Origin: Acidobacteriota bacterium
GTDB lineage: Bacteria; Acidobacteriota; UBA6911
Reading direction: 5' to 3'
DNA: 41,640 nt
Assembly (NCBI GenBank): GCA_012719455.1
Contig: JAAYAJ010000059.1
Location: forward strand, 1-41,640
The translations under genes and the position numbers were made by a program. Under the pieces are notes generated by a model. The model was given only the letters and a program-made list of their open reading frames with translations, had not been told where the DNA came from and made no database searches. Below, in pieces: positions 31,109 through 39,842 of the stretch (its first letter is position 1; every line of letters begins with the position of its first letter).

Positions 31109-33040
31109 TCAGGGCATCGATGCCTGAATCCGGCCGGTTTCCTCAACCTCGTACCCCCCAAGGCTCAGGACCTGCTCCTGAAACCCGGGCGAACGGATGA
31201 TTTCGAGCACGAGCACGATGCGCTGGTCTTTCATGAGTGGCGTGGGGATCACCAGGTCGTAGCGTTCCCTGGTAACCGGGATGAAATCGAGGTCGAGCGC
31301 CAGGGCCGCGGCCATGATCCCCAGTCCCGCGTCCGCCCGTCCCGAGGTGATCGCCATGGCCACGCTCATGTGTGTGTACTCCTCGTCGGCATACCCCTGG
31401 ATCCCCGCCGGGTCGATCCCCTCCCTGCCGAGTTCGTAGTCGAGCAGGATCCGGGTGCCGGAGCCCGCCTGGCGGTTGACAATGCGGAGGTCGGGCCGCG
31501 TCAGGTCGGTCATTCCCCGGATCCCCTTCGGGTTCCCCTTCGGGAGCATCAGTCCCTGCCAGCGGTGGACCAGTGTGACCAGCGTGACCGGGGTGCTCTT
31601 GATGAAACGGCCGAGGTAGGAGCGGTTGTAATCCCCGGTCTCGGTGTCCAGGAGGTGGGAGCCGGCGAAATGGGCGATCCCCTTTTCCACCGCCAGCAAT
31701 CCCCCCATGCTCCCAACGTTGCCCGAGGAGATGGTGACCCGTCCCTCGGAGCGCTCCTTGAGGGTGCTGGCGAGCAGGTCGATCGTGAGGTCGTGGGACC
31801 CCAGGGTCAGCAGCCGGTGCTCCAACTCCCCGGGGGAGGTGAGCAGCTCGACCCGCGCCTTTTCCCCCTCGGAATAGCCGCTCGTTTCCGGCGGGATACG
31901 CAGGATGCCGTCGGCGCGCACCAGCGACGTCAGCATCCCGGCCCCGCCGGTGAGGGGGATGGCCACGATCCGTGGGCCGATCCGGCCCAGGATGACCCTC
32001 ACGTGCTCCTCGAGGCCTGGCTTGGAGGGGAGTTTCCGGCCGATGCAGACCTCCACCTCCCGCGTTTCGGGGGGCTCGAGTCCCTGGACCTGGAACAGGA
32101 GCGGGCGGACGAACTCGCGGAATGAAACCGCCGCCGAAACGGGATAGCCGGGGATGCCGACCACCGGGCGGTCGGCGACCGCGGCTAGCAGCGTCGGCTT
32201 GCCGGGCATGACGGTCACCCCGTGGACCAGGAGTTCCCCGGACTCGCGCAGGACCGCCGGGGTATAGTCTTTCGATCCGGCCGAAGAGCCGGCGATGATG
32301 AGGACGATGTCGTAGTTTCCTCCGATCCCCGCAAGGACGGCGTCCCGGATCTCTTCCGGCCGGTCCGGGACCGGGCGCGCCAGGGTGCACTCGGCGCCGC
32401 ATTCCTCGGCCATCGATTGGAGCACCTGTCCGTTGACCTCCAGGACCAGCCCCGGGCGGATCGGATCGGTGACCTCCTCGGGGGGCACGACCTCGCTCCC
32501 GGTGGGGATGATGAGGACCCGCGGCTTGCGGGAGACGGAGATCTCCATGACACCCGCCGCCATCAGCGCCCCCTGGTCGAAGGCGCGGATCCGGTGATGC
32601 GCCGGGAGGATGATTTCGCCCCTGACGATGTCTTCCCCCATTTTGCGCACGTGCTGCCAGGGATAGACCGCTTCCCGGACCTCGCAACCGGCGTCGGTCA
32701 TTTCCACCTTTTCGATCATGACCACCGCGTCGGCCCCTTCGGGGAGGGGCTGGCCGGTGTTGACCGGTATCGCCTCCGTTCCCACCGGGAGCAGGACGGG
32801 GGTTTCGGGGAAGGCGGCAAAGGTCGACGCGGCCCGGACGGCCACGCCGTCGACCGCCGCCGCATGGTAGGCGGGGACGGACCGGGCCGCCTTGACGGCG
32901 CTCACGCTCATCCGGCCGAGGGCGCGGCGCACCGGTACGGTTTCCGCTTGCAGCGCCAGGTTCCGGAAGCGCGTCAGGAAGATGTCCCGGGCCTCATGGA
33001 GCGGTTTCAGGTTGCGATAGGACTGTCTCTTGGGTGTCAT
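31109..33040 (-). CDS. MoeA fused to a C-terminal PBP-like (molybdate/tungstate-sensing) domain
   Basis: The 643-residue product has a MoeA domain (about residues 1-400: AVDGVAVRA, IPVNTGQPLPEGADAVVM, GKPTLLAAVADRPVVGIPG) and a type 2 periplasmic-binding-like domain (about 410-640: GNVGSMGGLLAVEKG, HLLDTETGDYN, NRQAGSGTRILLDYELG). There is no signal peptide, so the binding domain is cytosolic and may present the oxyanion to the MoeA half, which inserts metal into adenylylated molybdopterin. The MoeA half departs from canonical motifs: TGDE reads TGSE and the RDxN stretch reads LExN. The PBP-like domain is homologous to that of the regulator at 38081-38992. It starts 17 bases after moeA. Confidence 0.9.
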   Translation of the reverse strand: MTPKRQSYRNLKPLHEARDIFLTRFRNLALQAETVPVRRALGRMSVSAVKAARSVPAYHAAAVDGVAVRAASTFAAFPETPVLLPVGTEAIPVNTGQPLPEGADAVVMIEKVEMTDAGCEVREAVYPWQHVRKMGEDIVRGEIILPAHHRIRAFDQGALMAAGVMEISVSRKPRVLIIPTGSEVVPPEEVTDPIRPGLVLEVNGQVLQSMAEECGAECTLARPVPDRPEEIRDAVLAGIGGNYDIVLIIAGSSAGSKDYTPAVLRESGELLVHGVTVMPGKPTLLAAVADRPVVGIPGYPVSAAVSFREFVRPLLFQVQGLEPPETREVEVCIGRKLPSKPGLEEHVRVILGRIGPRIVAIPLTGGAGMLTSLVRADGILRIPPETSGYSEGEKARVELLTSPGELEHRLLTLGSHDLTIDLLASTLKERSEGRVTISSGNVGSMGGLLAVEKGIAHFAGSHLLDTETGDYNRSYLGRFIKSTPVTLVTLVHRWQGLMLPKGNPKGIRGMTDLTRPDLRIVNRQAGSGTRILLDYELGREGIDPAGIQGYADEEYTHMSVAMAITSGRADAGLGIMAAALALDLDFIPVTRERYDLVIPTPLMKDQRIVLVLEIIRSPGFQEQVLSLGGYEVEETGRIQASMP

Positions 33041-33057
33041 GTCCGGCTCTTCATGGA

Positions 33058-34293
33058 TTAAAACTCGATGACGTCGACGACCTCGCCTCCAGGGAGCCCC
33101 TCGGCGTTCATTGGGATCCTTATGATCCCGTCCGCCCGGACCATCGTGGAGAGCATGCCCGATTTCCCGAACACGGGGCGGGCGACGGCGTTTCCCTCGC
33201 CGTCCCGCTCGAGCCGCACGCGGATGTACTCCTCCAGCCCGATAGTGGAGTGCACGCTGGTGGCGAGCACCGCCTGCACCCGGTGTCCCGCGGGCCCCTT
33301 GGCCAGCGGGGCGCCCTGGAGGTAGCGCAGGAAGGGGGCCAGGAAGATCTGGGCGATCACCAGGGCGGAAACGGGGTGCCCGGGAAGCCCGACAACGGCG
33401 TTTTCCCCCTGTCGGGCGAGCAGGGTGGGTTTCCCGGGCCGGATCGCGATGCCGTGAGCGAGCAGCTCGACCTCCGGGAGCCGGGATACGGCCTGGAGCA
33501 TCAGGTCGCGCGCTCCGACCGAACTTCCCCCCGACATGGTGACGACGTCGGCCGCGGCGAGCGCCTCGCCTAGCGTCCGTTCCAGCCGGGCGACGTCGTC
33601 CGGCACGATGTCGAAAAGGGTGGGGATCCCTCCCGATTCCCGGACCAACGCCGAAATCGCGTGGCTGTTGGCATCGCGGACCTGGCCCGGCCGGGGCCGG
33701 CGATCCATGGGGACGATTTCGTCCCCCGAGGAGATCACCCCAACCCGGGGGCGCCGGTAGACGGGGACCTCGATGATGCCCAGGGCGGCGAGAAAGCCCA
33801 GTTCCTGGGGGCGCAGCACCTTCCCCGTTGCGAGGAGAGTGGTTCCTGAGAGGGCGTCCTCCCCCCGTTCCAGGACGTTGGCTTTTTCGGTCACCGGCCG
33901 GGTCACCTCGATGCTCCCGGCTTCGGCGGGGTTGGTGTACTCCACCATCACCACGGCGTCGGCCCCCGGCGGGAGGAACCCGCCGGTCGGGATCGGGGCC
34001 GCCTCCCCCGCACCGATTTCGAACCGCGGCAGCTCCCCCATGAGGACGGGGGGCCCAAGCGTGAGCAGGGCCGGGATCGAATCGCTGGCCCCGAAGGTGT
34101 CCCGGGCGCGCACGGCAAACCCGTCGACGGTGGAACGTGCCCCCTCCGGCAGGTCCTCGGGGCAGGCCAGGTCCCGGGACAGGGTCCGGCCGAGCGCGTC
34201 GTCCAGGGGCACCGTCTCCCCCGCGAGCCGGGGGAAGCCGCCGAGGCACTCGAGAAACCGGTCCGCGGTGATCACGTGAAAAAACTCGGTCAA
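33058..34293 (-). CDS. moeA: Molybdopterin molybdenumtransferase MoeA
   Basis: MoeA inserts molybdate (or tungstate) into MPT-AMP to make active cofactor. The 411-residue product has STVDGFAVRARD (the MDGYA-type motif), PIPTGGFLPPGADAVVMVE, ISSGDEIV, RDANSHAI, MSGGSSVGARD and VVGLPGHPVSAL, all close to canonical, so this looks like the fully active copy. The start is a TTG at 34293 with GAGGG six bases upstream; no ATG fits. It lies between the HD/zinc-ribbon gene and the MoeA-PBP fusion, all on one strand. Confidence 0.93.
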   Translation of the reverse strand: MTEFFHVITADRFLECLGGFPRLAGETVPLDDALGRTLSRDLACPEDLPEGARSTVDGFAVRARDTFGASDSIPALLTLGPPVLMGELPRFEIGAGEAAPIPTGGFLPPGADAVVMVEYTNPAEAGSIEVTRPVTEKANVLERGEDALSGTTLLATGKVLRPQELGFLAALGIIEVPVYRRPRVGVISSGDEIVPMDRRPRPGQVRDANSHAISALVRESGGIPTLFDIVPDDVARLERTLGEALAAADVVTMSGGSSVGARDLMLQAVSRLPEVELLAHGIAIRPGKPTLLARQGENAVVGLPGHPVSALVIAQIFLAPFLRYLQGAPLAKGPAGHRVQAVLATSVHSTIGLEEYIRVRLERDGEGNAVARPVFGKSGMLSTMVRADGIIRIPMNAEGLPGGEVVDVIEF

Positions 34294-34360
34294 TGCAAAC
34301 CCTCGCAAATCAAGGAGGGACGGGCGGCCCGGGAAAAACGTTGGGACGCGCGCCCTCGGG

Positions 34361-35251
34361 TCAGGCGATTTCCGGCAGGCAGAACGAGGTCTCCAGCCGC
34401 TCGTCGCAACGGGCGCAGTCCCATTCCACGTGGAGACTGGTACACTTGACTCCCTGCTCGGTCCTCCACGCCATGCGCCACCGTCCACCGCAGGAGGGGC
34501 AGGCGGGTGCGGCCGCCAGCCGGATGCGGAGCGCTTTCCCCCCGCGTGGGGAGGGGACCTCCAGCCGCCGGATGCGAAGATCGACGATTCCCGCATCCTT
34601 CAATTCTGCCAGGAGGTTGCGGAAGAATCTAAGCGAATCTCCCGCCTTTTTTTCCGCCATTCTGCGCCCGGCGGCCGTGCGCATGTTCGCGGGGAGGGAG
34701 GCGGCATAGGTCAGTTCCTTGCTGAGATAGCCGAGGACCGAAGAGCGCAGCGTGCGGCCGCGCAGCACCGATTTGGTGAAGAACGCGGCGATCCCCAGGG
34801 CCCCGAACTTGGAGAGGAAATCGGCGTCGTGGATCAGGGCCGCGACCGCGTTCTCCCCCGCTTTCTCATTGTAGAGAGCCACGAGTCCCGCCGTTACCTT
34901 GCGGATGTCGGCCGCCTTCATCCCGGCTTCGCCCAGCAACCGCGCGGCGATGCGGGCCGATTCCTCCTCTTCGGCCGTCTCCCCCTCGTGGTAACGCCCC
35001 CCGGCGAATTTGCCCGCGTCGTGAAACAGTGCGGCGATGGAGGGGATCAGGGGGTCCAGTCCCTCCAGCGTGGCCAACCGGCAGGCCAGCGAAGCCACCT
35101 GGACCGTATGTTCCCAGAGGTGGCTCTCACGGCGTTCCGCGTCCCCTTCGTACTCCCGTTCCGAATTCTCGATGAAGCCCCGGATCCGCGCCACCAAGCC
35201 CGGAAACCGGGATTCGACGATGCTTTCGTAGGACTGGTTTTCGGCAGCCAT
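34361..35251 (-). CDS. HD-domain phosphohydrolase-like protein with C-terminal zinc ribbon
   Basis: The 296-residue product has an HD domain (about residues 40-160): SHLWEHTVQVASL and then LFHDAGKF and LIHDADFLSK, the His and Asp pattern of metal-dependent phosphohydrolases. The C-terminus holds two CxxC pairs, CPSC near 251 and CARC near 279, a probable zinc ribbon, with an extra Cys between. I do not know this fusion as a named family. It is 67 bases upstream of moeA in the Mo/W cluster, so a link to molybdopterin or nucleotide handling is possible. The ATG at 35251 has no ribosome site and lies nine bases after a -10. Confidence 0.8.
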   Translation of the reverse strand: MAAENQSYESIVESRFPGLVARIRGFIENSEREYEGDAERRESHLWEHTVQVASLACRLATLEGLDPLIPSIAALFHDAGKFAGGRYHEGETAEEEESARIAARLLGEAGMKAADIRKVTAGLVALYNEKAGENAVAALIHDADFLSKFGALGIAAFFTKSVLRGRTLRSSVLGYLSKELTYAASLPANMRTAAGRRMAEKKAGDSLRFFRNLLAELKDAGIVDLRIRRLEVPSPRGGKALRIRLAAAPACPSCGGRWRMAWRTEQGVKCTSLHVEWDCARCDERLETSFCLPEIA

Positions 35252-35260
35252 GAGGGCGGC

Positions 35261-35290
35261 ATTATCCCGCGCCCGCAACGGGAGCGTCAA
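35261..35290 (-). promoter_or_regulatory. Promoter for the HD-moeA-moeA-PBP operon
   Basis: The minus strand has TTGACG (35285-35290), an 18-base spacer and GATAAT (35261-35266), each five of six. The ATG is nine bases after the -10, so the transcript would be leaderless or nearly so. It lies downstream of the terminator at 35361-35400, which separates this unit from the tup genes. Confidence 0.55.
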
Positions 35291-35360
35291 GCCATACTTG
35301 GCCTGTGATCCCCGCTGGACGCTCTGATTCCGGTCCGTGCCCGGCGCTCCCGTGCCGGGG

Positions 35361-35400
35361 GAAAACAAAAACGGGAGGGCGTCGGCCGACGCCCTCCCGT
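35361..35400 (-). terminator. Strong intrinsic terminator after the small exported protein
   Basis: Bases 35371-35400 are a perfect 30-base palindrome (arms of 15: ACGGGAGGGCGTCGG and its complement). On the minus strand it is followed by a T-rich run, GTTTTTGTTTTC, the classic rho-independent layout. It lies 25 bases after the stop at 35426 and separates the tup region from the HD-moeA unit. Confidence 0.9.
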
Positions 35401-35425
35401 CATCCGCCCTGCCGGTCAAAATCGG

Positions 35426-35788
35426 TTACCGGGCTTTTTTCAGCACCATTTCCATCGGCTGGCCCATCATGTCCATGGTGAGCTTGATTTCCTGGGCCGA
35501 GACTACGCCCTTGTACTCCATTCTCATTTCCTGTCCGCCGAAATCGAGGGCCACCACGAACGAGATGTTGTTGCCGTCGATCTTGCCTTCCTTGAGCGGG
35601 ATTTCCTTTCCGTCCGGACCGGTTGTGGATCCGGTCAACGTCGCTCCCTCCGCCTTGAAGGTGTAGGCGATTGTCATCGGGGTGCCGTCCATGCCCGGGA
35701 TTTCGGTGGTCCATTTTCCATCCACGTCCGCGCCGAACGCCGGTCCGGCCACCAGAAACAAAGCCACAACCAATACCAGTCTTTTCAT
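35426..35788 (-). CDS. Small exported protein of unknown function
   Basis: The 120-residue product has a signal peptide (KRLVLVVALFLVAGPAFGA) and a beta-rich mature part of about 100 residues: GKWTTEIPGMDG, YTFKAEGATLTGSTTGPDG, KIDGNNISFVVALDFGG and a Met-rich end (LTMDMMGQPMEMVLKK). The repeated strand pattern suggests a small beta-barrel or lipocalin-like fold, as in several secreted proteins of Acidobacteria; no function can be assigned. AAGGAGG precedes the ATG. It starts 41 bases after tupC and ends at a strong terminator, so it may be the last gene of the tup operon. Confidence 0.8.
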   Translation of the reverse strand: MKRLVLVVALFLVAGPAFGADVDGKWTTEIPGMDGTPMTIAYTFKAEGATLTGSTTGPDGKEIPLKEGKIDGNNISFVVALDFGGQEMRMEYKGVVSAQEIKLTMDMMGQPMEMVLKKAR

Positions 35789-35829
35789 GAAATCCTCCTT
35801 GTATACTGTTAAGCCTCGCGTCCGAAACT

Positions 35830-36540
35830 TCAGTGAGCATTCTCCCGCGGGCGCCCGCCCGGGGGGGCCTGACCCTGTCCGTGGGGCTGGGTGATCTTCC
35901 CCTTTTCGAGGCGGAAGACCCGGCTCGAAAGGGCGGACACGATGTCGGGATCGTGGGTCGCCATGATCACGGTAGTATTACGACTCTGGACAGCCCGGTG
36001 TAACAGTCCCGCCAAAATCGGCCGGGAATCGTCGTCGAGCGAATTGGTGGGTTCGTCCAGGAGCAGGATCGGGGTCTCGATGACCAGCGCCCGCGCCAGC
36101 GCCACCCGCTGCGCCTCTCCCCCGGAGAGGAGGTGGGCGTGCTTGTCCAGGGACTCCGCGAGGCCCAGCGCGCGCGCGATCTCCTCCGTGCGGTTGCGAA
36201 TCTCCCGCTGCGGCAACCCCAGCACCCTGAGGCCGTAGGAGATGTTTTTTCGGACCGTGGTGGAGAAAAGGACCGGTTTCTGGTGGACCAGGGTGACCCG
36301 GCGCCGCAGGTTCCGGTCCCGGTTGCCGACCGATTCCACCCCGCCCAGGCGCACGCTCCCCTCCGAGGGGGTGCGTATCAGGGCGAGGATCGAAAGGAGG
36401 GTGGTCTTGCCGCAGCCGTTGGGGCCCATGAAGGTGGAGATCCCCTGGGCGGGGATCTCGAGCCGCGGGATGTCCAGGACGGTCCGGCCGTCGTATTCGT
36501 GGCGGAGACCGCGGATGACGTAGGCGTCCGGGGAGGTCAT
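35830..36540 (-). CDS. tupC: Tungstate-type ABC transporter ATP-binding protein
   Basis: The 236-residue ATPase drives uptake through TupB. It has Walker A GPNGCGKTT, Q-loop LVHQKPVLF, signature LSGGEAQRVALARAL, Walker B ILLLDEPTNSLD and the switch His in MATHDPD. The C-terminal ~20 residues are Pro/Gly/Gln-rich and look unstructured. Its ATG overlaps the tupB stop by four bases. Assignment to tungstate rather than molybdate or sulfate rests on TupA and TupB. Confidence 0.87.
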   Translation of the reverse strand: MTSPDAYVIRGLRHEYDGRTVLDIPRLEIPAQGISTFMGPNGCGKTTLLSILALIRTPSEGSVRLGGVESVGNRDRNLRRRVTLVHQKPVLFSTTVRKNISYGLRVLGLPQREIRNRTEEIARALGLAESLDKHAHLLSGGEAQRVALARALVIETPILLLDEPTNSLDDDSRPILAGLLHRAVQSRNTTVIMATHDPDIVSALSSRVFRLEKGKITQPHGQGQAPPGGRPRENAH

Positions 36541-37229
36541 GCCGTTCTCCTCCGCAGCAGCCGCGCGCCGATATTGACGGCGAAGGCGACGACGAGCAGG
36601 ATCATCCCCAGGGCCAGCCCCAGCGCGAATTCACCCCTGCTGGTCTCGAGCGAGATGGCGGTAGTGATGGTGCGGGTGTACCCGAGGATGTTCCCCCCAA
36701 GGATGATGGAGATTCCCACTTCCCCGATCACCCTCCCGAAGGCGGTGATGCAGGCCACGAGCAGCGCTGGGCGAGCCTCTTCGGCCACCGTGACCAGGGT
36801 GCGCATCCTTCCGGCCCCCAGGGTGAAGGCGGTTTCCCTGACCACCGGGTTGACCACCGAAATGGCGCTTGCCGACAGGGAGGCGACCAGCGGCAGGATC
36901 AGCACTGCCTGGCCCAGGATGATGGCCGCAGGGGTGAACAGGAGCCGCAGCTGTCCCAGCGGGCCCTGGCTGAAAACCAGGGTGTAGACGAAAAGGCCCA
37001 CCACCACCGTGGGAACGGCCAGCAGGGTGTTGAGCAGGTCCTCCACGAACCGTTTAAAGCGGAACCTGGCGGTGGCCAGCGCCACCCCCAGGGGAACCCC
37101 GATGACGGAGGCGATGAGGGTGCTGGTGAGCGAAAAACGGAGGGAGGCCCCCACGATGACGGTGACCTCGGGGTCCGCCGTGAGGAGGAGGCGCAGCGCC
37201 TCCCTCGATGCCTGGGACAGGTCGTTCAA
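36537..37229 (-). CDS. tupB: Tungstate-type ABC transporter permease
   Basis: The 230-residue membrane protein has about five or six hydrophobic segments and the ABC-permease EAA-type loop (ETAFTLGAGRMRTLVTVAEEARPALL), then AFGRVIGEVGISIILGGNI and TRTITTAISLETSRGEFALGLALG, a TupB-like pattern. It starts four bases after tupA and overlaps tupC, so the three form a tight operon. Confidence 0.88.
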   Translation of the reverse strand: MNDLSQASREALRLLLTADPEVTVIVGASLRFSLTSTLIASVIGVPLGVALATARFRFKRFVEDLLNTLLAVPTVVVGLFVYTLVFSQGPLGQLRLLFTPAAIILGQAVLILPLVASLSASAISVVNPVVRETAFTLGAGRMRTLVTVAEEARPALLVACITAFGRVIGEVGISIILGGNILGYTRTITTAISLETSRGEFALGLALGMILLVVAFAVNIGARLLRRRTA

Positions 37230-37233
37230 GCAG

Positions 37234-38046
37234 TCACTCGTCCGGGACGCAGACCGGTTTGAACAGGGCGTGCCCGCCCGAGCGGAAATCCCCGATCCGC
37301 TTTTGCCCTTCGGAGGAACAGAGCCAGTTGATGAGCTGGAGCGCCAGGCGGTCCTTGACGGCGGGGAAGCGCGCGGGATTGACCAGGATGGCGGAATAGT
37401 AGTTGAGGAGGTCCGGGTCCCCCTCGGACAGGACCTGGAGTTTCAGCTGGTCGCGCCGACCGAGCCAGGTGGCGCGGTCGGAAAGGGTGTAGGCCCCCTT
37501 TTCCCCCGCCATCGTCAGCGTGGCGCCCATTCCTTGCCCGATTTCCAGGTACCAGGCCCCCCGGGGGGTGATTTCCGCCTGTTTCCAGATCGCTTTCTCC
37601 TTGCGGTGGGTGCCCGAATCGTCCCCCCTGGAAATGAAGGTGGCGCCCCGCCGGGCGATGGCGGCCAGGGCGGCGGCGGCGCTTTTCTCCCCCCGGATGC
37701 GGGCCGGGTCGGCCGGGGGGCCGAGGATGACGAAATCGTTGACCATCAGGGTCTTGCGGTTGACCCCGTAGCCCCGGTTCACGAATTCGAGCTCCGCTTC
37801 CGGAGCGTGGACCAGGACCAGGTCGACGTCGCCCCCCTCCGCGAGTTTCAGCGCCTGCCCGGTTCCGACCGCGATGACGTCGACCTTGCAGCGGCAGAGC
37901 TCTTCGAACCGGGGGAGGAGGAAGGGGAGCAGGCCCGAATCCTGCACCGAGGTGGTGGTGGCAAAACGGAGGCGCGGCGTGTCGGCGGCCGCGGCCGGCA
38001 ACAGAAGGAGGAAGAATCCCAAGGCTGTTTTGAGGATGGTGTGCAT
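37234..38046 (-). CDS. tupA: Tungstate-type ABC transporter substrate-binding protein
   Basis: The 270-residue periplasmic protein has a signal peptide (KTALGFFLLLLPAAAA) and the TupA hallmark ATTTSVQDSGLL near the mature N-terminus, followed by VGTGQALKLAEGGDVDLVLVHAP, NDFVILGPPADPA and SRGDDSGTHRKEK. TupA proteins usually bind tungstate with very high affinity, although molybdate or vanadate relatives exist. I use the ATG at 38046, 34 bases after the regulator gene; the upstream frame is a shadow. Confidence 0.92.
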   Translation of the reverse strand: MHTILKTALGFFLLLLPAAAADTPRLRFATTTSVQDSGLLPFLLPRFEELCRCKVDVIAVGTGQALKLAEGGDVDLVLVHAPEAELEFVNRGYGVNRKTLMVNDFVILGPPADPARIRGEKSAAAALAAIARRGATFISRGDDSGTHRKEKAIWKQAEITPRGAWYLEIGQGMGATLTMAGEKGAYTLSDRATWLGRRDQLKLQVLSEGDPDLLNYYSAILVNPARFPAVKDRLALQLINWLCSSEGQKRIGDFRSGGHALFKPVCVPDE

Positions 38047-38080
38047 ATGCAAACTCGATTGTCGGTCCGCTTGGGACCGG

Positions 38081-38992
38081 TCAGTCCCGTTCGTAGACCA
38101 CTTTCCCGGTGTCCCGGACTTCGTAGCCTCCCATCGAGACAACGTTGGTTTTGAATTCGTCGGAGCGGAGCACGGCGCAGAGCGCCTGGACGGCATCGGT
38201 CGAGAAACTCGCGGTCGGGATGGCCAGGTCGAAACGTTCCTTGGCCAGGGGCATGAAATCGAGCCCCAGCATCCGGGCGACGGCCATGATGCCGACCCCG
38301 GCGTCGGCGCCGCCGCTGAAGACCTCCAGGGCTACCTCCATGTGGGTGTAGGACGTGCGGTCATAGCCGGCGATCGACTCGGGGTCGATGCCCAGTTCTC
38401 GGAGCCGGTAATCGAGCAGGACGCGGGTCCCGCTCCCCTCCTGCCGGTTGATGAATTTTGCCTTTTTGGTGGCCAGGTGCTTGAGGGTCTTGATGCCGAG
38501 GGGGTTCCCCTTTTTGACGATCAGCCCCTGTTCCCGGTGCGCCACGTTGAGCAGGACCACCTTCATTTCGGGGAAGTGCTTCCTGATGAAGGAACTGTTG
38601 TACTCGCCCGTCTCCTGGTCCAGCAGGTGCGTGGCGGCCACGTGGCAGTTGCCGTGCTCAAGCGCGATCAGCCCGGCGAGGCTTCCCACGTTGGAGATCG
38701 AAATGGTGTAGTCGGGGTTCTGGAGGTTGGCGTTCTTGACCAGCAGTTCCAGCGCCAGGTCGTTGCTCCCGGCGATGACCACCTGGTGTCCGGGGCCCGG
38801 GCGGAGGGAAGGGGCGACACTTTCGCGCGCGCTTGCGACCACCCACTCCTCGATCAAGTTTTTGGGGAAGAGCCACTTGCCCGTGATCCGCGTGGCGGGG
38901 ATCTTCTTTTCCTTGATCAACCGGTACACCTGTTTCTCGTTGATGCTGAGATACTCGGCGACCTCCTTGGTTGTGAGCATTTCTCGAGTCAT
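38081..38992 (-). CDS. HTH regulator with cytosolic PBP-like (molybdate/tungstate) domain
   Basis: The 303-residue product has an excisionase/MerR-type helix-turn-helix at residues 1-50 (LTTKEVAEYLSINEKQVYRL, then KWLFPKNLIEEWV) and a PBP-like domain (about 75-295) with SNVGSLAGLIALEHG, HLLDQETGEYN, NRQEGSGTRVLLDYRL and YTHMEVALEVF. There is no signal peptide. Such proteins are thought to sense cytosolic molybdate or tungstate and control uptake genes. It is the first gene of the tup operon, so autoregulation is likely, and a direct repeat at the promoter is a candidate site. Confidence 0.88.
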   Translation of the reverse strand: MTREMLTTKEVAEYLSINEKQVYRLIKEKKIPATRITGKWLFPKNLIEEWVVASARESVAPSLRPGPGHQVVIAGSNDLALELLVKNANLQNPDYTISISNVGSLAGLIALEHGNCHVAATHLLDQETGEYNSSFIRKHFPEMKVVLLNVAHREQGLIVKKGNPLGIKTLKHLATKKAKFINRQEGSGTRVLLDYRLRELGIDPESIAGYDRTSYTHMEVALEVFSGGADAGVGIMAVARMLGLDFMPLAKERFDLAIPTASFSTDAVQALCAVLRSDEFKTNVVSMGGYEVRDTGKVVYERD

Positions 38993-39017
38993 GACGGTTC
39001 AGGTCCCTCTTTGGAAT

Positions 39018-39034
39018 CAATGACCTGCAATGAC
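39018..39034 (-). promoter_or_regulatory. Candidate operator: two CAATGAC direct repeats
   Basis: CAATGAC occurs at 39018-39024 and again at 39028-39034 (top strand), ten bases apart, one helical turn. The repeats lie just downstream of the -10 of the regulator-tup promoter, over the expected transcript start, where bound protein would block initiation. The likely binder is the HTH-PBP regulator itself. This is inferred from position and spacing only. Confidence 0.4.
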
Positions 39035-39036
39035 GA

Positions 39037-39064
39037 ATTGTAGCCGAAGGCGACCCGGAGTCAA
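39037..39064 (-). promoter_or_regulatory. Promoter of the regulator-tupABC operon
   Basis: The minus strand has TTGACT (39059-39064), a 16-base spacer and TACAAT (39037-39042), each five of six. The predicted start near 39030 gives a leader of about 38 bases before the ATG at 38992. Confidence 0.6.
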
Positions 39065-39107: not shown

Positions 39108-39842
39108 CTAAGCGATGCGCGCGTCGTTGATGAGGTACTTGGCCGCGATGTAGTTGAGCGATTCGGCCGTCGCGAGTCCCTGGGCTAGGCGCCGGATCGT
39201 CTCCAGGTCCGAAGTCCAGGCGACGTCCCCGGGAGCGAACAGGCAGATCGATCCCGGTTCAGGTGCGGTGATCAACCGTCCTCCCGCGTAGCCGTACCAG
39301 GTGTCGCAGACCTCGGTCTCGTAAGCGTGCATCATGGGCGGGATGTCCGCGGGGGAGAACCAGAGCTTGATTTCGCGTTCGGCGTCCGCGGGGTTGGCCG
39401 AGGCGTGGATCAGGTTGTCCATCCGCTCGCTGATCGTGTTCCCCTCGGCGTCCTTGATCGGGACCAGGGTCCCCAGGGCGCGGATGCATCCCGGCTTGTC
39501 CTGCCGGGCGACGTGGGGGTTGGTTGGGCCGGCGATGGCGCGGATCTTCAGGATGGCGTCGGGGCCCTGGTAGACGATGGCGACCACGCGCCGCTTCCAG
39601 GCTTCGTCGTAGTGGAGGCTCCCGGTGATGTAGTCCAGGAGCGATTCGTAAAACGCCTTGCCGCGATGCTCCGCGTAATGCTCCTCCCCCAGGATGCGGT
39701 TGACGGCCACGATCTTGGCTCCCGCGAGATGAAGGCCGGAGTGGAATTCGGACAGCTGCGACAGCAGGTAGCCCGTCAGGGAGTTTTTGAGAGCGTCCGG
39801 CTTGAGCAGTACGAGGGTTTGTTCCAGTTCTTGCTTGTCCAT
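39108..39842 (-). CDS. Nucleoside diphosphate kinase-like protein, extended
   Basis: The 244-residue product starts as an NDK: VLLKPDALKN, FYESLLDYITGS, VAIVYQGPDAI, AGPTNPHVA and the active-site His in NLIHASAN (about residue 146), then EREIKLWF. NDKs pass phosphate among nucleoside di- and triphosphates through this His and are usually ~140 residues. This one has insertions (HYDEAWKRR near 77-85 and VPIKDAEGNTISERM near 127-141) plus an ~80-residue C-terminal extension (CDTWYGYAGG, ICLFAPGDVAWTSDLETIRR) that I do not recognise. The usual Asp after the His-Ser (HxSD) is Ala. Activity is plausible but not certain. Confidence 0.85.
   Translation of the reverse strand: MDKQELEQTLVLLKPDALKNSLTGYLLSQLSEFHSGLHLAGAKIVAVNRILGEEHYAEHRGKAFYESLLDYITGSLHYDEAWKRRVVAIVYQGPDAILKIRAIAGPTNPHVARQDKPGCIRALGTLVPIKDAEGNTISERMDNLIHASANPADAEREIKLWFSPADIPPMMHAYETEVCDTWYGYAGGRLITAPEPGSICLFAPGDVAWTSDLETIRRLAQGLATAESLNYIAAKYLINDARIA

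Follow-up and report, generated by a model that had tools for sequence, protein, structure and literature searches.

A Probable Tungsten-Cofactor Supply Locus of Acidobacteriota and Its HD/Zinc-Ribbon Protein

Introduction

The window analysed here is a contig of 41,640 nucleotides (JAAYAJ010000059.1), one of the 107 contigs of a 2.79-Mb genome of an Acidobacteriota bacterium (G000 in the genome comparisons). Eight genes, all on the minus strand between about 39.0 and 31.1 kb, lie at the places given in the initial annotation, which had read them as a helix-turn-helix (HTH)-PBP regulator, TupABC, a small exported protein, an HD/zinc-ribbon protein (here HDZn), MoeA and a MoeA-PBP fusion. The place and strand of all eight were confirmed, and the assignment of the locus to tungsten or molybdenum handling is supported. 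The near relatives among named genomes are metagenome-assembled genomes of Acidobacteriota.

Gene Content and Transcription Units

The first transcription unit starts at a promoter at 39037–39064 (TTGACT-16-TACAAT; minus strand, as are all features described below), which is kept upstream in two close relatives. It encodes a predicted TaoR-type regulator (REG; 38081–38992) with an N-terminal excisionase-like HTH_17 domain and a C-terminal PBP-like domain (PF12727), the tungstate-binding protein TupA (37234–38046), which carries a signal peptide, and the permease TupB (36537–37229), whose family matches fit the name. The ATPase TupC (35830–36540) takes its name from the context, TupC being one among many ABC ATPase models matched. 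The last gene of the unit encodes a small exported protein of 120 aa (35426–35788), which has no family match and is present in the closest relatives only, and an intrinsic terminator with a 14-bp stem and a T-run follows at 35370–35401.

The second unit has its own promoter at 35261–35290 (TTGACG-18-GATAAT); this promoter and the inverted repeat around its -10 box are conserved across the genus. HDZn (34361–35251) consists of a metal-dependent phosphohydrolase-like HD domain and a C-terminal zinc-ribbon-like domain with six cysteines. It is followed by a stand-alone MoeA (33058–34293), with all three MoeA domains present and a probable TTG start at 34293, and by the MoeA-PBP fusion (31109–33040; NF011068/PRK14498); the two correspond to MoeA2 and MoeA1 of Megrian et al., respectively. 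A PBP1b gene begins about 20 nt downstream of the fusion. The terminator behind the exported-protein gene and the conserved promoter before HDZn rule out a single 8-kb operon, and the locus is thus divided into two units, REG-tupABC-exported protein and HDZn-moeA-moeA/PBP. A similar promoter stands directly before moeA in two relatives (G001 and G003) in which HDZn is absent or moved. Since the promoter repeat, CGGGATAATNCCG, has one exact copy in the whole genome, a wider regulon marked by it was discarded as far as exact matches are concerned. Upstream of REG, at 39108–39842, a nucleoside diphosphate kinase of 244 aa with an insertion and a long C-terminal extension is encoded, and this extended form is conserved in two close relatives.

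Conservation of the Gene Order

Conservation of the neighbourhood in related genomes had been set beforehand as a check, and both block orders are kept. HDZn-moeA-moeA/PBP occurs in five genomes of the same genus and family (G004, G006, G007, G008 and G012) and probably in G002, where it is divided over two contigs, while REG-tupABC is retained in G001, G004, G006, G007 and G008. The entire arrangement lies on one contig in G006; in G004, G007 and G008 both blocks end at contig ends that fit together. Those of G007 carry matching parts of one aldehyde oxidoreductase (AOR) gene (profile positions 3–207 and 221–346), so that the joined contigs would probably read REG-tupABC-aor(opposite strand)-HDZn-moeA-moeA/PBP, and G008 looks alike. 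HDZn is found about 5 kb away from the MoeA pair in G003. Because it is conserved in relatives, the gene order is not a matter of chance.

In a scan of named genomes, relatives of the fusion turned up at 67 loci, distributed over Acidobacteriota, former Deltaproteobacteria, Planctomycetota and Thermoproteota. In many of them, archaeal ones included, a second MoeA directly adjoins the fusion, and TupA is encoded within 10 kb of it in Edaphobacter aggregans, one Planctomycetota metagenome-assembled genome (MAG) and two Desulfovibrionaceae MAGs. E. aggregans carries both MoeA genes as well as TupABC, and HDZn is missing from it. HDZn adjoins the fusion in the window's group only.

With eight AOR-family matches, the genome has at least eight tungsten AOR genes, and members of the genus have 8–23; many proteins of this expansion, in G000 and in the genus, belong to a divergent low-scoring subgroup. 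In four genomes (G003, G005, G007 and G008) an AOR gene is the neighbour of REG, tup or HDZn, and three genomes of the same family (G010, G011 and G013) lack both AOR and the fusion. Matches to PF00384 number four in this genome, at three places. One of them, on contig C32 (L175), is a formate dehydrogenase whose frame is interrupted by a TGA codon (context NCART*HAP) that probably encodes selenocysteine.

The Regulator and the Tungstate Importer

REG matched HTH_17 (PF12728; 1.3e-14), TIGR01764 (1.1e-12) and the PBP-like PF12727 (6.7e-73). The gene adjoins tupABC, and in several relatives an AOR gene lies next to or near it. Regulators of the TaoR family were reportedly described by Rajeev et al. 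in 2019. The architecture of TaoR, characterised as the regulator of a tungsten aldehyde oxidoreductase, is HTH_17 plus a PBP-like domain (PMC11980592), and a study on Desulfovibrio vulgaris names DVU3193 tupR with a citation of the TaoR source (PMC10102598). The architecture is thus already published, and REG is, judged by its domain sequences, of the TaoR type.

The top NCBIfam model for TupA was TupA itself (3.5e-63), with 213 bits against an equivalog cut-off of 400, so the protein is best called TupA-like, by motif and context, rather than a certified equivalog. The motifs are TTTS at residue 31 and SRGDDSGTH at residue 140, and the tungstate-site motif R118/T124 is present.

Several related regulators or neighbours were encountered in other places. 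Between an AOR gene and the TaoR-type regulator of G005 (L041:5200-5408), immediately 5' of the latter, a short frame ending DSIIKDGDRVQLYPYMEGG is MoaD/ThiS sulfur-carrier-like. Two archaeal genomes (G413 and G415; loci L202, L203, L211 and L212) encode regulators that join a ModE-like winged helix to the same PBP-like domain. Near an XdhC-like gene, contig C40 of G000 encodes a 421-aa regulator (L050:5897-7159) that combines another HTH type with a PBP-like domain and is possibly a molybdenum-hydroxylase regulator.

The Shared PBP-Like Domain

Four motifs that the initial annotation had quoted as common to the regulator and the second MoeA (NVGS, HLLDxETGxYN, NRQxGSGTRxLLDYxL and YTHM) are present exactly in that form, at residues 101, 122, 182 and 215 of REG and 441, 462, 522 and 555 of the fusion. 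Over this domain the two proteins share 45% identity. The further proposal that one cytosolic domain has been reused stands in part: a PBP-type domain, of oxyanion type in both fold and motif, does occur on the two proteins, but an origin of this reuse here is not supported, as the proteins belong to older published families and their domains to separate clades. A tree built from 44 PBP-like domains sets those of the regulators apart by one branch (81/93), and those of the acidobacterial MoeA proteins by another (100/100). The closest company of the REG domain there is a pair of HTH_17-PBP proteins from deltaproteobacterial MAGs (81/93, on long branches, with DVU3193 not in the tree). The separate clades rule out a recent local duplication between REG and MoeA, and, as read from the tree, the split between regulator and MoeA domains predates the window's genus.

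For the PBP domain of the fusion, a structure model (mean predicted local distance difference test score, pLDDT, of 97) gave Foldseek matches to type-2 binding proteins, including ModA/WtpA with tungstate and molybdate (3cij, 2onr) and a putative molybdate binder (4kd5), and also to LysR-type effector domains and proteins that bind phosphate. Within NRQxGSGT, the Arg and Thr that align with R118/T124 of TupA are invariant in 46 of 46 domains. Alignment and model together support binding of a tetrahedral oxyanion by the PBP domain, and do not discriminate tungstate from molybdate or phosphate. It is conceivable, if somewhat improbable, that the domain of the fusion and the regulator senses molybdate or another anion and not tungstate; the phosphate and molybdate binders among the fold matches would fit this, as would the related regulator encoded beside the XdhC-like gene, whereas the linkage to TupABC and AOR genes and the role of TaoR as the regulator of a tungsten enzyme speak for tungstate. 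A weak PF12727 match on contig C39 proved to be a PstS-type protein in a pst-like locus.

The MoeA Pair

The fusion is built of MoeA_N, MoCF_biosynth and MoeA_C followed by PBP_like, and its score of 712 bits exceeds the NF011068/PRK14498 cut-off of 534. Columns invariant over both MoeA groups are DG, the E of TGxE, PGKP and PGxP; no loss of catalytic residues was found in either MoeA, both having kept the core. A third, stand-alone MoeA adjoins moaC elsewhere in this genome. Megrian et al. (2025) described MoeA1-PBP with an adjacent MoeA2, with TupA co-occurring in 86% and encoded at the same locus in 28%, and proposed tungsten insertion with channelling from the PBP domain. The fusion, the second MoeA next to it and the link to TupA are therefore already published, and the fusion of the window belongs to a named family.

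The initial annotation suggested that the shared domain gates transcription and cofactor metallation, perhaps to discriminate tungstate from molybdate. Gating of metallation is hypothetical, and discrimination by the two MoeA types conflicts with the genetics of D. vulgaris, in which moeA and the PBP-fused moeA are both required for Aor activity and the tungsten cofactor (cofitness 0.85), and whose authors reject a division between molybdenum and tungsten (PMC10102598). A division of labour, in which MoeA-PBP inserts tungsten, plain MoeA handles molybdenum insertion and the PBP domain acts as a selectivity filter, was proposed by Megrian et al. from the 86% co-occurrence with TupA, and the moeA1-mobB-tupBCA cluster of Methylorubrum extorquens, which serves a tungsten formate dehydrogenase (PMC13197769), is in line with it. 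We nevertheless consider it unlikely, given the need for both genes in Desulfovibrio, the adjacency of the pair in archaea and bacteria, the intact catalytic core of both proteins and the third MoeA beside moaC, which can serve molybdenum. The need for both genes favours joint action of the two MoeA proteins.

The HDZn Protein and Its Genomic Associations

HDZn matched the HD domain (2e-07), and its HD metal ligands (H48, H77, D78 and D144) are invariant; the six cysteines of the C-terminal domain are conserved. The top fold match of its model (pLDDT 80) was YpgQ (5dqv; E 4.3e-6), and profile comparison matched both YpgQ (1.1e-9), which has nucleotide pyrophosphohydrolase activity (PMC8177086), and further HD proteins, with values as low as 2.2e-12. 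The Pfam and NCBIfam matches included no dedicated HDZn model, and the literature searched yielded no HD-domain protein linked with MobA or AOR. The initial remark that the combination with the HD/zinc-ribbon protein was unfamiliar proved right.

HDZn was surveyed in 396 Acidobacteriota genomes and in 198 genomes of Desulfobacterota, the phylum of a deltaproteobacterial MAG; full-length proteins were found in 26 and 7 of them, respectively. Outside the window's family, a divergent mobA is placed directly beside HDZn in eight loci and at a distance of 3 kb in one more, and a DmsA-type molybdopterin oxidoreductase is encoded near HDZn in nine loci. Of six HDZn proteins inspected in Desulfobacterota, five form the C-terminal part of a fusion with a MobA-like nucleotidyltransferase, and the gene of the remaining one adjoins an AOR gene. 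AOR is present in all 24 HDZn genomes tested outside the window's family, as opposed to 5 of 44 HDZn-negative Acidobacteriota. For the 17 acidobacterial genomes concerned, Fisher's test of HDZn-AOR co-occurrence gave p = 5e-11 when genomes were counted and 7e-4 when families were, the latter being the safer value because the samples were drawn differently and the genomes are related. The tie of HDZn to the molybdenum/tungsten (Mo/W) cofactor pathway is, on these genomic links, well supported.

The frames of the fusions of MobA-like nucleotidyltransferase, HD and six-cysteine domains (L180–L184) measure 519–566 aa, and in three of these loci a cation diffusion facilitator-like gene follows. HDZn is not a universal partner of MoeA-PBP, as 17 of 20 MoeA-PBP genomes outside the genus had no match and the remaining three had weak generic HD matches. 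The presence of MoeA was uninformative as a phyletic test for HDZn, its background being 85%.

Two other roles for HDZn have to be weighed. A general nucleotide-pool or housekeeping phosphohydrolase, with incidental adjacency to moeA, is suggested by YpgQ, the best-characterised relative, which acts on nucleoside and deoxynucleoside triphosphates (PMC8177086), and by the two loci devoid of cofactor neighbours. It appears quite improbable in view of the independent links to moeA in the genus, to mobA/Dms operons in families f48, f54 and f26, and to MobA by fusion in Desulfobacterota, and of the AOR found in every HDZn genome tested. HDZn could otherwise be a regulator or sensor that hydrolyses a signalling nucleotide, or whose zinc ribbon senses metal or redox state for the assembly of Mo/W enzymes. 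HD domains are frequent in nucleotide signalling and the six cysteines are conserved, but the fusion to a biosynthetic nucleotidyltransferase, together with metal ligands conserved without exception, speaks for an enzyme and makes a sensor an unlikely role.

Proposed Function

Taken together, the locus is likely to supply tungsten cofactor in AOR-rich Acidobacteriota, with a TaoR-type unit and importer, a jointly acting MoeA pair, and HDZn as an enzyme of the cofactor pathway. By analogy with TaoR, a cytosolic oxyanion would bind the PBP domain of REG and change its DNA binding; REG would thereby sense cytosolic tungstate and control tup and possibly AOR genes. The products of the second unit would insert the metal into molybdopterin. 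In this step both MoeA proteins would act together, and the PBP domain of the fusion would bind the oxyanion or deliver it to the MoeA site. Every nucleotide intermediate of the pathway, namely adenylylated molybdopterin (MPT-AMP) and the guanine and cytosine dinucleotides (MGD and MCD), has a pyrophosphate bond, and AOR uses the nucleotide-free form. HDZn would hydrolyse the pyrophosphate bond of a molybdopterin nucleotide, either MPT-AMP or a surplus MGD-type dinucleotide, and would so help to provide nucleotide-free cofactor for AOR. We infer a pterin-nucleotide pyrophosphate as the substrate only tentatively. Equally speculative is the wider idea that HDZn represents the founder of a cofactor-enzyme family, stand-alone or fused to MobA, which hydrolyses molybdopterin-nucleotide pyrophosphates and balances nucleotide-free tungsten cofactor for AOR against dinucleotide cofactor for formate dehydrogenase and the DMSO-reductase family.

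Several observations weigh against this interpretation. Enzymes of PF00384 also occur in all 24 HDZn genomes tested outside the window's family, so AOR is not uniquely implied. Tungsten enzymes can do without HDZn, since it is missing from the AOR-bearing genomes G001, G009 and G014 and from those MoeA-PBP genomes outside Acidobacteriota that were tested. At two HDZn loci, of family f35, there is no cofactor gene nearby, and five HDZn genomes have no MoeA match. As to the PBP-like domain, R-x5-T is the oxyanion motif of phosphate-binding proteins too, and is therefore no proof of tungstate, and the profile comparison of the domain with TupA was weak.

To our knowledge, the production of nucleotide-free and dinucleotide cofactor forms side by side is an open question. 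Why many bacteria need two MoeA proteins has also been asked in the literature (PMC10102598). An HD enzyme conserved with moeA, mobA and AOR is a concrete candidate gene for these questions.

Comparison with Known Systems

Apart from HDZn, the components of the locus are already known; the link of HDZn to Mo/W cofactor genes, including its fusion to MobA, did not appear in the literature searched and is the new part. The moeA1-mobB-tupBCA module of M. extorquens likewise unites a tungsten transporter and MoeA in one locus, but has MobB as the partner, and neither a PBP fusion nor an HD protein was found in the part of its description searched (PMC13197769). With MoeA1-PBP/MoeA2 (Megrian et al., 2025; NF011068/PRK14498; DVU0951) the fusion shares the domain order, the adjacent MoeA and TupA in the genome; nothing in its architecture sets it apart, and the locus differs in that HDZn precedes the pair and PBP1b follows it. 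REG resembles the TaoR family in its HTH_17 and PBP-like domains, the absence of a TOBE domain, and the linkage to tupABC and AOR genes; it differs in adjoining tupABC and, in the window's genus, in lying near the MoeA pair. HDZn has the HD fold and the aligning H..HD..D metal ligands in common with YpgQ-type HD nucleotide pyrophosphohydrolases (5DQV). It departs from them by the loss, in most HDZn proteins, of the second-shell His25 of YpgQ, and by its six-cysteine C-terminal domain, its fusion to MobA in some bacteria and its Mo/W-cofactor neighbourhoods.

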